Shown here: positions 3,312-6,485 of the stretch, piece by piece
Numbering within the stretch: the stretch's first letter is position 1
Layout: every line of letters starts with the position of its first letter
NCBI RefSeq assembly: GCF_016653355.1
Contig: NZ_NHSK01000149.1
Location: 1 to 46,183 of the forward strand
Direction of reading: 5' to 3'
DNA from: Rhodoplanes elegans
Lineage (GTDB): Bacteria; Pseudomonadota; Alphaproteobacteria; Rhizobiales; Xanthobacteraceae
DNA length: 46,183 nucleotides
Notes under the pieces: model-generated
The model's input: only the letters and a program-made list of their open reading frames with translations
The model's database searches: none
Told to the model about the DNA's origin: nothing
Position numbers and translations under genes: made by a program

Positions 3312-3400
3312 GCGAAGGGCACTCCGGTTGCGGGGCACGGTCGTCTCGACGAGAAAAATGCAAGCGGGGTGCCAACGCCGAGCCCGCGGCTGCCCCCTCC

Positions 3401-3541
3401 CTGTCCCTCCCCCGCAAGCGGGAGAGGGGACGCTGGAGCCGCTACGCCGTGGCGATGCGGAAAGTTCCGATTGTTTCGGGCCTAGCCGTGCCGCGGGCGG
3501 CTCCCTCCCCCGCTTGCGGGGGAGGGTCGGGGAGGGGGCGC
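3401..3541. repeat. Pair of palindromic repeats, family G, in a 336-bp gene-free gap
   Basis: Two hairpins, CCTCCCCCGCAAGCGGGAG-type near 3405-3428 and CTCCCTCCCCCGC-TT-GCGGGGGAGGG near 3501-3526, face each other. The trailing text gacgctggagccg at 3429-3441 recurs next to the copy at 8785-8820. The rest of the gap 3312-3647 holds only the promoter signature at 3596-3622. Confidence 0.7.
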
Positions 3542-3595
3542 CCCGAGCACGGCACCGGCGCGAGCGGGCATGCCTCCCCGAAATTTCCGCCCCCG

Positions 3596-3622
3596 TGTCG
3601 GGATCGGCTAGGCTCGGCCGTC
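3596..3622 (+). promoter_or_regulatory. Putative ECF42-type promoter of the DGPF/sigma operon
   Basis: TGTCGG (3596-3601), 17 bases, then CGTC (3619-3622), 25 bp before the ATG at 3648. The same hexamer, spacing and -10 tetramer occur at 5359-5385. From memory, the ECF42 target motif described in Streptomyces venezuelae is TGTCGA around -35 and CG(A/T)C around -10, which this fits with one change. This suggests the sigma factor drives its own operon. Confidence 0.65.
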
Positions 3623-3647
3623 CTCGGATCACGGAGGGAGCCCCCGG

Positions 3648-4064
3648 ATGCTGTACGCCATTCTCTGCTACCATCAGGAAGACGTCGTCTGCTCCTGGAG
3701 CAAGGAGGAGGACGACGCCGTGATGGCGCGCCTCGCGCCGATCCAGGAGCGGCTGGCGCGCCAGGGCAAGCTCGGCCCGGTCGCGCGGCTGATGCCGACC
3801 ACGGCGGCGACGACGCTGCGCAAGGATCGCGATCCGCCGCTCGTCATCGACGGACCGTTCGCCGAGACGAAAGAGCAGCTTCTCGGCTTCTACATCGTCG
3901 ATTGCGCGTCGCTCGACGAGGCCCTGGAGATCGCCCGCGAGCTGGGCGCGGCCAATCCGGGCGGCGCCTACGAGCTGCGGCCAGTCGCGCTGTTTCATCC
4001 CGCCACGTCTCCGCCGAGCGCGTCTCCGCCCGCCACGTCTCCTCCCGCGAAGGTCACGGCCTGA
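3648..4064 (+). CDS. YCII/DGPF-domain protein, ECF42 partner
   Basis: A 138-residue member of the YCII-related (DGPF) family. The signature VIDGPFAETKEQ is at about residues 66-77 in an alpha-beta ferredoxin-like fold. Biochemical function is unknown; in many bacteria these genes lie directly next to ECF42 sigma factors, as here. A good ribosome site (ggaggg) precedes the ATG. The last 20 residues are a degenerate S-P-P-A-T repeat from a tandem cgccacgtctcc-like run. Its stop codon shares one base with the sigma-factor ATG (TGATG), so the two are probably translationally coupled. Confidence 0.88.
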   Translation: MLYAILCYHQEDVVCSWSKEEDDAVMARLAPIQERLARQGKLGPVARLMPTTAATTLRKDRDPPLVIDGPFAETKEQLLGFYIVDCASLDEALEIARELGAANPGGAYELRPVALFHPATSPPSASPPATSPPAKVTA

Positions 4065-5326
4065 TGGATGTCGACTGGATTGGCGCGACCCTTCATGCGG
4101 CGCGGCCGCAGGTGCTCGCCGCGCTGACCCGTGCGTTCCGGGATCTCGACCTCGCCGAGGAGGCGCTGCAGGAGGCGTCGCTGCGCGCGCTCAAGACCTG
4201 GCCGAAGAACGGCCCGCCGCGCGACGCCGCGGCGTGGCTGGTCATGGTCGGCCGCAACGCCGCGATCGACGCGGTGCGGCGCAAGCGCCGCGAGGCGCCG
4301 CTGCCCGACGAGGAGGTCTTGTCCGAGCGCGACGACGCCGAGGCGGCGCTGGCCGAGGAGCTCGACGAGAGCCACTATCGCGACGACATTCTGAGACTGC
4401 TGTTCGTCTGCTGCCATCCCGACCTGCCGGCGACCCAGCAGATCGCGCTGGCGCTGCGCATCGTCTCGGGCCTGTCGGTCGGCGAGATCGCGCGGGCGTT
4501 CCTCGTCAGCGAGGCCGCCATGGAGCAGCGCATCACCCGCGCCAAGCGACGGGTGGCGAGCGCGAACGTGCCGTTCGAGGCGCCGAGCCCGCCGGAGCGC
4601 GCCGCCCGCGTCGCCACCGTGGCGGCGACCATCTATCTCCTGTTCAACGAGGGCTATGCGGCGAGCGGCGGCGAGGCGCATGTGCGCCACGGCCTGTGCG
4701 ACGAGGCGATCCGGCTGGCGCGCCTGCTGCTCCGCCTGTTCCCGACCGAGCCCGAGATCATGGGCCTGACGGCGCTGATGCTGCTCCAGCATTCGCGCGC
4801 CGCGGCACGGCTCGACGCCGATGGTGACATCGTGCTGCTCGACGATCAGGACCGCAGCCGCTGGGACCGGCGGCTGATCGACGAGGGGCTCGCGCTGCTC
4901 GACAAGGCGATGCGGCATCGAGCCCCGGGACCATATCAGGTCCAGGCGGCGATCGCGGCCCTGCACGCGCGCGCCGCCCGGCCGCAGGATACCGACTGGG
5001 CCCAGATCGAGATTCTCTACGGCGTGCTCGAGCGGCTGACGCCCTCGCCGGTGGTGTCCTTGAACCGCGCCGTGGCGACCTGGAAGCTGCGCGGCGCCGA
5101 GGCGGCGCTCGCCGTGATCGGGCCGCTGGAGGCGGATCTCGCCGGCTACTTCTACTTCTTCGGCCTGAAGGGTGCGCTGCTCGACGCGCTCGGGCGCACC
5201 GGCGAGGCGCGCACCGCCTTCGACCGCGCCATCGCGCTCGCCCACTCGCCGGCCGAGGCCGCGCATATCCGCCGTCAGCTCGATCGCCTCGCCACGGCGC
5301 CCGTGACGACTGCGACGTCCTCCTGA
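4064..5326 (+). CDS. RNA polymerase sigma factor, ECF42 group
   Basis: A 420-residue extracytoplasmic-function sigma factor. Region 2 (DLAEEALQEASLRALKTWP...AAWLVMVGRNAAIDAVRR) is at about residues 25-70. Region 4 (LSVGEIARAFLVSEAAMEQRITRAKRR) is at about 140-170. A long C-terminal extension of about 240 residues has the group hallmark LLFNEGYAASGG and TPR-like helices (LNRAVA, ALLDALGRTGEARTAFDRAI). No anti-sigma gene is adjacent, as expected for ECF42, where the extension is thought to be needed for activity. It is coupled to the upstream DGPF gene. I infer it controls that operon and the DUF1428 gene through the shared promoter signature. Confidence 0.92.
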   Translation: MDVDWIGATLHAARPQVLAALTRAFRDLDLAEEALQEASLRALKTWPKNGPPRDAAAWLVMVGRNAAIDAVRRKRREAPLPDEEVLSERDDAEAALAEELDESHYRDDILRLLFVCCHPDLPATQQIALALRIVSGLSVGEIARAFLVSEAAMEQRITRAKRRVASANVPFEAPSPPERAARVATVAATIYLLFNEGYAASGGEAHVRHGLCDEAIRLARLLLRLFPTEPEIMGLTALMLLQHSRAAARLDADGDIVLLDDQDRSRWDRRLIDEGLALLDKAMRHRAPGPYQVQAAIAALHARAARPQDTDWAQIEILYGVLERLTPSPVVSLNRAVATWKLRGAEAALAVIGPLEADLAGYFYFFGLKGALLDALGRTGEARTAFDRAIALAHSPAEAAHIRRQLDRLATAPVTTATSS

Positions 5327-5358
5327 AATTACCTCCCGCAAAAAAAGATTCGCGTCAC

Positions 5359-5385
5359 TGTCGGGGTCCCGCCGCGCCGTCCGTC
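5359..5385 (+). promoter_or_regulatory. Putative ECF42-type promoter before DUF1428 gene
   Basis: TGTCGG (5359-5364), 17 bases, CGTC (5382-5385), 44 bp before the ATG at 5429. It matches the element at 3596-3622 in hexamer, spacing and tetramer, while the DNA between and around the two differs. It would make 5429-6260, and possibly the genes beyond, part of the sigma factor's regulon. Confidence 0.65.
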
Positions 5386-5428
5386 TTCAGGGCGTGACGG
5401 GAGACGAGACAGGAGAGGAGGACCCCCG

Positions 5429-5797
5429 ATGGAGATGCTGGGCAAGTATGTCGACGGCTATGTGCTGCCGGTGCCGACCGCGAAGCTCGATGCCTATCGC
5501 GCGATGGCCCGGGAGGCCGGCCGGGTGTGGCGCGATCACGGCGCGCTCGCCTTCGTCGAATGCGTCGCCGAGGACGTGAAGCCCGGCACCCACACGTCGT
5601 TCCCGCAGGCCGTCAAGCTCGAGCCGGACGAGACCGTGATCTTCTCGTGGATCGTCTTCGCCTCGCGGGCCGAGCGCGACCGTATCAACGCCGCCGTGAT
5701 GGAGGACGAGCGCATCAAGCAGTGGCACGAGCGCGAGCCGGTGTTCGACGGCAAGCGGATGTTCTGGGGCGGCTTCGACGTTCTGGTCGAAGCCTGA
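5429..5797 (+). CDS. DUF1428 family protein
   Basis: A 122-residue protein of the DUF1428 family, small alpha-beta-barrel-like proteins of unknown function (YbaA-like). The conserved opening YVDGYVLPVP and closing segments KRMFWGGFDVLV are complete. A ribosome site (aggagagga) precedes the ATG at 5429; the second Met at 5435 is an alternative start. DUF1428 genes are often grouped with DGPF and VOC genes and with ECF sigma factors, as they are here, which hints at a role in oxidative or xenobiotic stress, but this is association only. The DGPF gene follows after 31 bp. Confidence 0.88.
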   Translation: MEMLGKYVDGYVLPVPTAKLDAYRAMAREAGRVWRDHGALAFVECVAEDVKPGTHTSFPQAVKLEPDETVIFSWIVFASRAERDRINAAVMEDERIKQWHEREPVFDGKRMFWGGFDVLVEA

Positions 5798-5828: not shown

Positions 5829-6260
5829 ATGAAGGTCATGGTTCTGGTCAAGGCGAGCCAGGCGTCGGAAGCCGGCGAGATGCCGTCCACCGCGCTGTTC
5901 GAGGCGATGGGCAAGTACAACGAGGCGCTGGTCGAGGCCGGCATCATGCTGGCCGGCGAGGGCCTGCATCCGACCTCGAAGGGCAAGCGCGTGCGCTTCG
6001 ACGGCGCGAGCCGCACCGTCATCGACGGCCCCTTCGCCGAGACCAAGGAGCTGGTCGCCGGCTACTGGCTGTGGAACGTCGCCTCGATGGAGGAGGCGGT
6101 CGAGTGGCTGAAGCGCTGCCCCAACCCGCACGAGGAGGCCGGCGAGGTCGAGATCCGCCAGGTCTTCGAGATGGAGGATTTCGGCGAGGCCTTCACGCCC
6201 GAGCTGCGTGACCGCGAGGCGCGCATGCAGGAGCGCATCCGCGAGAAGACCGGCGGGTGA
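5829..6260 (+). CDS. YCII/DGPF-domain protein (second copy)
   Basis: A 143-residue YCII-related protein with the signature VIDGPFAETKELVAGYW at about residues 64-80, in a different subfamily from the copy at 3648 (it opens MKVMVLVKAS rather than MLYAILCYH). The C-terminal 30 residues (EDFGEAFTPELRDREARMQERI) are helical, as in longer family members. It follows the DUF1428 gene by 31 bp with an agaggga ribosome site and is probably co-transcribed. Function is unknown. Confidence 0.88.
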   Translation: MKVMVLVKASQASEAGEMPSTALFEAMGKYNEALVEAGIMLAGEGLHPTSKGKRVRFDGASRTVIDGPFAETKELVAGYWLWNVASMEEAVEWLKRCPNPHEEAGEVEIRQVFEMEDFGEAFTPELRDREARMQERIREKTGG

Positions 6261-6286: not shown

Positions 6287-6436
6287 CGTGTCCCGGGCGC
6301 GGCGCGCCGCGCCGTGACCCGGGACCCAGGGGCGACGGGACGATGCGCTCGTCGAGCCGCTCGTCGTGCGGCTCCTGGGCCCCGGCTCTGCGGCGCATCG
6401 GGCCGTTGGCCCGACGCGCCGCAGAGCCGGGGCACG
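6287..6436 (+). repeat. Composite repeat element R, copy 1
   Basis: A 150-bp element bounded by cgtgtcccggg at the left and gccggggcacg at the right. It has two hairpin arms: gtgtcccgggcgcggcgc...gccgtgacccggga and ccccggctctgcggcgc...gcgccgcagagccgggg. Closely similar elements are at 31711-31838 (inverted) and 35528-35676 (direct). This copy separates the second DGPF gene from the VOC gene within an otherwise compact co-directional run. Confidence 0.8.
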
Positions 6437-6485
6437 AGCGAAGCAACACGCCGGACCTGATCATAATCTCGCAAAGGAACCCCCG

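Follow-up and report, generated by a model that had tools for sequence, protein, structure and literature searches.

Candidate ECF42 promoters before and after a sigma factor gene of Rhodoplanes elegans, and a promoter base that probably separates ECF42 paralogues

The closest described counterpart of the locus studied here is RpoE10, an ECF42 sigma factor of Sinorhizobium meliloti, for which TGTCGG-N17-CGTC is printed upstream of SMc01151-rpoE10, SMc01149-48 and SMb20475-74 (PMC6180224, Table 1). Overexpression of RpoE10 raised SMc01149-48 and SMb20475-74 but not SMc01151, whose motif overlaps its mapped transcription start (PMC6180224). The entries printed for SMc01149 and SMb20475 run on for 9 bases past CGTC, whereas the SMc01151 entry stops at CGTC; the last letter of the SMc01149 entry is marked as the start (PMC6180224), and we have taken the last letters of the SMb20475 and SMc01151 entries to be starts as well. 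The ECF42 sigma factors of Streptomyces venezuelae are described as needing their C-terminal extension for activity, and the TPR extension of ECF42 proteins is proposed to be needed for activity and to be responsive to a partner that may be the YCII protein (PMC8999054, PMC9023288). For ECF sigma factors at large, a residue–base code has been put forward that links promoter letters with individual residues in the domains of the protein (Todor et al. 2020, as cited in PMC8103513).

The window analysed here, a stretch of 46,183 nucleotides of R. elegans, carries TGTCGG-N17-CGTC twice on the forward strand, at positions 3596–3622 and 5359–5385, with a spacer of 17 in both and with different spacer bases, exactly as the original prediction had it; Pfam matches also bore out its gene assignments. 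The promoter and gene features of the window given below are on the forward strand. Promoter 1 (−35 TGTCGG at 3596–3601, −10 CGTC at 3619–3622) is followed by a conserved T at 3624 and preceded, 9 bases before the −35 element, by the UP-element-like tract AAATTT (3581–3586), which lies in the columns (−18 to −10) that are kept as A/T in the sites of relatives. It ends 25 bases before the start of a YCII/DGPF gene of 138 amino acids (3648–4064; PF03795, E=2e-22; DGPF motif), whose stop overlaps by one base the start of the sigma factor gene (420 amino acids, 4064–5326). Promoter 2 (−35 TGTCGG at 5359–5364, −10 CGTC at 5382–5385, conserved T at 5387) lies between the sigma stop and the DUF1428 gene, downstream of another UP-element-like tract, AAAAAAA (5340–5346), and 43 bases before the DUF1428 start. 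The DUF1428 gene (122 amino acids, 5429–5797; PF07237, E=4.3e-41) would be the first of a second target operon, and a second YCII/DGPF gene (143 amino acids, 5829–6260; PF03795, E=1.3e-19; DGPF motif), which follows after a gap of 31 bases, is probably co-transcribed with it. The predicted ECF42-dependent transcription starts are 3631 and 5394, at offset 35, where the SMc01149 and SMb20475 entries of S. meliloti also end. Between the second DGPF gene and the VOC gene lies an inverted repeat at 6362–6450, with two 43-base arms that are 79% complementary and a 3-base loop, which may be the terminator of the DUF1428-YCII transcript or a palindromic element. Upstream of promoter 1, at 3400–3531, a 25-base palindrome-like element occurs twice (88% alike); it can also be seen as a 29-base inverted pair.

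We consider that RNA polymerase carrying the intervening ECF42 sigma factor, the counterpart of RpoE10, very probably reads both sites, and we would give this explanation as a whole a probability of about 0.88. Promoter 1 would then serve the DGPF-sigma operon, and promoter 2 would be an ordinary target promoter that drives DUF1428 together with the second DGPF gene. The sigma factor itself has the ECF core, with Sigma70_r2 and Sigma70_r4_2 (PF04542 and PF08281, both above cut-off), and a C-terminal extension of about 250 amino acids that contains DUF6596 (E=9e-38), where the ECF42 group is characterised by an extension of some 200 residues with TPR repeats. TPR matches in it are weak (TPR_2 at E=0.0027, below Pfam's cut-off), and at a permissive cut-off TPR_2 matches 23 of 23 homologues, at best with 1.2e-5. 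A YCII/DGPF gene adjoins the sigma gene, as expected for the ECF42 group, and the promoter motif of the group stands before the sigma operon and before targets, with a core that is identical to that of the printed RpoE10 promoters and conserved in relatives. The genome has one close sigma factor of this kind, three other matches being only 25–30% identical, and the nearest named relatives found are from Rhodoplanes, with sigma factors 83–87% identical. In line with the original prediction, a Pfam scan of the neighbours (CMAS, cytidylate kinase, transglutaminase, YCII, DUF1428, YCII, two VOC, BNR, DUF6460 and Peptidase_S24) turned up no member of an anti-sigma family; an anti-sigma factor of unknown kind would escape such a scan. 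By analogy with the group, the activity of the sigma factor is presumably set by its TPR-like C-terminal extension, and perhaps also by the DGPF protein.

To follow the conservation of the two sites we took the top 80 of 495 sigma loci, named L035–L114. The strict motif with a spacer of 17, on the strand of the sigma gene, has 131 matches in 77 of these loci, compared with at most 19 matches for each of the other spacers from 8 to 27, and 9 on the opposite strand at spacer 17; the core is absent from the sigma strand of three loci (L045, L082 and L098). The degenerate letters proposed originally (TGTCGR and CGWC) proved unneeded near a sigma factor of the window type, as they add 4 matches to the 131 on the sigma strand. 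Sites of an upstream class, 400–520 bases before the sigma start, are present in 59 of the 80 loci, and this is the class of promoter 1; sites of a downstream class, 1200–1800 bases after the sigma start, are present in 51, and both classes in 39. When sites of relatives are aligned, columns −18 to −10 upstream of TGTCGG stand out as an A/T tract, as does a T one base past CGTC; offset 35–36 is conserved too, as A in two of the classes and as G in the third. Some loci are arranged differently: in a Steroidobacter MAG (L041) a distance of 58 bases separates the motif from the sigma gene, leaving no space for a YCII gene, and in four Bradyrhizobium loci (L083, L095, L103 and L114) it is found 2.8–4.5 kb upstream of the sigma gene, before a probable RibD_C (dihydrofolate-reductase-like) gene.

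The motif also follows the sigma factor from genome to genome. We sorted 199 genomes of the order, with at most nine candidates scored per genome, into 51 that have a sigma factor close to that of the window (E≤1e-100), 36 that have only more distant ones (1e-100 to 1e-40) and 112 with none, and searched them for an extended pattern made of five A/T positions, 11 unspecified bases, the core, one unspecified base and T. This pattern is present in 39/51 genomes with a close sigma factor, 0/36 with distant ones only and 2/112 with none (Fisher p=2.7e-28). Both window sites miss it by one letter, a G within the five A/T positions, and the only match in the R. elegans genome is a site on another contig (C50). 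Among the 12 close-sigma genomes without the extended motif, five have a sigma factor that lacks Glu154, one has a sigma factor with Glu154, and for six the sigma factor was not fetched. Two genomes, G044 and G118, have one extended motif each and no ECF42 sigma factor at E≤1e-40; these may be chance matches or traces of a lost sigma factor. The enrichment of spacer 17 and the tracking of sigma presence indicate, from sequence comparison, that the motif is more than a chance pattern.

A conserved spacer is found in upstream-class sites only. Once rows more than 75% alike had been removed, 23/46 upstream-class sites versus 0/70 others showed, at offset 13 (one of 12 offsets looked at), a hexamer that differs from TATAAT in two letters or fewer (p=7e-12), and a sigma70 matrix placed its best −10 at this offset in 30/46 upstream-class sites versus 3/45 and 3/25 of the others. 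With a −10 element at offset 13, transcription would begin within CGTC, which is what has been reported for SMc01151. We infer that the upstream class combines the ECF promoter with an overlapping housekeeping promoter, which would give a basal supply of sigma factor and mutual exclusion of the two promoters. In the window itself such an overlap with a basal sigma supply, as proposed for many relatives, is only likely: the hexamer TAGGCT (3609–3614) in the spacer of promoter 1 has 3 mismatches to TATAAT and so fails the cut-off of two, while the sigma70 matrix also places its best −10 here, with a score of 6.1 versus a class median of 5.9. The hexamer of S. meliloti SMc01151 at the same offset, TAGCGC, is a poor match, and no convincing offset was found for a −35 element of the overlapping promoter (best p=0.015 among 14 offsets). 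A housekeeping-like −10 element within many sigma-operon promoters would fit the puzzling failure of RpoE10 to raise SMc01151. Because the spacer of promoter 1 holds this weak −10 element, we are less confident that the sigma factor activates its own operon than that it activates DUF1428.

Comparison with paralogous ECF42 sigma factors points to a role for the last base of the −35 element. The first 60 ECF42-type genes comprise 20 close ones (E≤1e-100) and 40 distant ones. Of the close ones, 15 have a site, TGTCGG in every case, and 5 lack one; the distant ones have TGTCGA in 30 cases, TGTCGT in 5 and no site in 5. G112, G171 and G194 each have three sigma factors, one of each kind. The sigma table also takes in 31 genes sampled across the phylum and 29 of a single family, besides 9 picked for a nearby TGTCGA (in one of them the pattern is 3.5 kb away) and the window. 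Of its 130 sigma factors 99 have a site and 31 do not, one of the latter having Glu154. The most A/T-flanked match upstream was taken as the site, and the base recorded comes from the site before the sigma factor's own operon, the target promoters of the paralogues being sampled by pattern only. Residue 154, whose codon in the window (4523–4525) lies in the −35 recognition helix, is Glu in 21 and Gln in 1 of the 22 rows with G, it is Ala (45), Gly (20), Ser (5) or Leu (2) in the 72 rows with A, and Ala in all 5 rows with T. In other words, Glu or Gln is found in 22/22 G rows versus 0/77 A/T rows, and column 154 of the window protein is the only column without overlap of residues between these two sets, although columns 106, 187, 226 and 281 separate them too once the Gln154 row (L257) is omitted. 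Residue 158 was rejected as the cause, because Thr occurs at this position in part of the A rows too.

Related rows are counted separately in these figures. A quick tree built without the recognition helix shows three independent residue–base pairs, all concordant (sign test p=0.25, three pairs being too few for significance). These are the window clade; L257/G403, with Gln154 and TGTCGG inside an A clade; and a genus (g53) inside the window clade that has lost Glu154, of which G176 has TGTCGA, while in its members G151 and G122 no site was found. The extended pattern with TGTCGA is present in 25/67 genomes that have other ECF42 sigma factors versus 4/132, one of these four being G176 (p=3.5e-10). 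In an alignment with Escherichia coli sigma E, the counterpart of residue 154 is the Arg of TVRSRIF, Arg171. This arginine is described as hydrogen-bonding the template base at −31 (PMC6713349); the sixth −35 base would be −30 if offset 35 is +1, and the register relative to sigma E may be off by one. It appears likely that sister ECF42 sigma factors, of which a genome may have as many as three, are separated by the sixth −35 base of their own site, G going with Glu or Gln154 and A or T with small residues, with at least three switches, one of them in reverse. The window sigma factor would tell its own promoters from those of its sisters by this base, probably through Glu154. If true, a one-residue, one-base rule would explain how several ECF42 sigma factors work in one cell without cross-talk. 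Both this split and the spacer −10 of sigma-operon promoters go beyond the literature found, and for the G/A/T split or for DUF1428 as a target no report was found in the literature searched, a weak negative as its coverage lacked the most relevant papers.

These observations bear on an alternative that we regard as improbable, though it is the most serious one: only promoter 2 would be of the ECF42 type, and the site before the sigma operon would be a housekeeping promoter, its ECF42-like letters being a relic or having another role, with no self-activation. In its favour are the housekeeping-like −10 that upstream-class sites alone have, with its offset fixed, as well as the unresponsiveness of SMc01151 to RpoE10 and the overlap of its motif with the mapped start (PMC6180224). 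Since this S. meliloti YCII gene is not raised by RpoE10 overexpression, promoter 1 may be weak or silent. However, the ECF42 core is kept in 59/80 upstream regions, and the A/T tract and trailing T are conserved there while the outer flanking columns have drifted. In addition, the letter of the own-operon site changes together with residue 154 in the paralogues, which suggests recognition by their own sigma factor. We keep the reading in which the intervening sigma factor recognizes both sites.

To examine the rest of the genome, the 30 exact copies of the strict motif were scored with a promoter matrix of the conserved features outside the core letters, for which 48 sites of the downstream class in other genomes served as training set. 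Promoter 2 has the highest score of all (18.3), followed by a site on contig C145 (16.9), promoter 1 (14.7), the C50 site (11.2) and a site on C154 (8.0); none of the remaining 25 exceeds −6.6. Controls with a wrong spacer (n=51) have a median of −21.5, a 95th percentile of 1.5 and a maximum of 12.2, and non-training sites of relatives have medians of 15.7 and 14.6, with low scores occurring among them too (minimum −11.0 in the upstream class and −15.3 in the other). The C154 site was rejected as a promoter, as it lies inside a transposase-like gene, on the opposite strand; a pair of sites on C156 and 23 further sites were rejected on their scores of −6.6 or less. Two sites of identical 27-base sequence lie inside two 545-codon open frames, 63 kb apart on one contig (C74). 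The C50 site ends 49 bases before a VOC/3-dmu-9_3-mt gene and the C145 site 48 bases before an AHSA1/SRPBCC gene, so that the predicted regulon would comprise about four promoters, the two of the window and those of these VOC/glyoxalase and AHSA1/SRPBCC genes; as the prediction uses the exact core only, sites with an altered core letter would be missed.

The extension of the regulon to DUF1428, which the original prediction proposed together with the second DGPF gene, was supported by other genomes. PF07237 is found in 83/199 genomes, and among the best 30 DUF1428 loci, the only ones taken, 8 have an exact site ending 34–63 bases before the domain on the strand of the gene and one more has a site with a mismatch; in another two the site is about 0.9 kb upstream and was left uncounted. 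The 8 sites fall in 8/16 loci of genomes with a close sigma factor versus 0/14 of the rest (p=0.0022), which indicates that DUF1428 is a recurrent target of the ECF42 sigma factor. DUF1428 stands next to the sigma gene as the second target in two of three Rhodoplanes loci (L036 and L037, not L035) and, by this test, in none of the other loci of the 80. Those 80 loci have 81 sites outside the upstream class, 4 of them without a usable gene, and the 77 genes scanned encode Glyoxalase (19), AHSA1 (16), DoxX_2 (13), Polyketide_cyc2 (12), YCII (7), 3-dmu-9_3-mt (7), RibD_C (4), SnoaL_3 (3) and DUF1428 (2) domains, where one protein may match several families, one gene is the sigma gene itself and gene starts were chosen by rule. 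The families commonly served (YCII, VOC, AHSA1/SRPBCC, DoxX-like, RibD_C and SnoaL) hint at a response to small molecules or a detoxification response.

A coherent gene set of this kind could also be marked by sites at which a different regulator, repressor or activator, binds to control a DGPF/VOC/SRPBCC regulon, rather than by sigma factor promoters. We consider this very unlikely, as the spacing is fixed at 17 bases, the four sites lie 25–49 bases before start codons on the strand of the gene, and the two S. meliloti target sequences end 9 bases past CGTC, one with a marked start; the covariation with a residue of the sigma factor's −35 helix also argues against it.

Counting the motif, as the original prediction proposed, gave numbers close to chance, and we rejected it as proof, whether in the window or in the whole genome. 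The relaxed motif has 2 matches in the window versus 1.18 expected, and 38 of 100 shuffles reach 2; sites with up to one mismatch number 7, including the two exact ones, versus 9.68 expected, and no further promoter was found before 6486, 7162 or 8312. In the 6.54-Mb genome there are 30 exact copies of the strict motif versus 9 for a reversed control, and 25 of the 30 have no other promoter features. Thirty copies per 13.1 million strand positions would place about 0.0005 copies in two 100-base upstream stretches, an after-the-fact figure. The evidence from relatives, in which enrichment is found, and from sigma presence is independent of counts. Chance occurrence of a 10-base pattern in GC-rich DNA, with which the 25 featureless copies and the shuffles agree, is strongly opposed by conservation at the same place in relatives and by the tracking of the sigma factor, and we hardly consider it credible.

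The Streptomyces ECF42 motif ends in TGTCGA, and the sites studied here differ from it: in the genomes compared, TGTCGA belongs to other ECF42 paralogues. The original prediction, which leaned on Streptomyces, stands in that an ECF42-type promoter is the best reading of both sites, and is corrected in that the exact motif is the TGTCGG of the RpoE10 branch. The window sigma factor resembles Sven_0747, Sven_4377 and Sven_7131 of S. venezuelae in having a YCII neighbour and a C-terminal extension, TPR-rich in those proteins and TPR-like in the window (PMC8999054, PMC9023288), and Pseudomonas putida ECF-10 and Xanthomonas campestris ECF42 are assigned to the same group (PMC8999054, PMC8103513, PMC10880074). 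The likeness is closest to S. meliloti RpoE10: in both, an ECF42 sigma gene lies behind a YCII gene with no anti-sigma gene, TGTCGG-N17-CGTC stands before the sigma operon and before the next operon, and targets have hydrophobic-ligand and glyoxalase-like domains. The differences are that the operon after the window sigma gene is DUF1428-YCII, that the VOC and AHSA1 targets of the R. elegans genome lie elsewhere, and that the transcription data come from S. meliloti only. The motif and the layout are thus already in print for Sinorhizobium RpoE10, and the window is a further case, whose promoters would extend the known ECF42 regulon to DUF1428.
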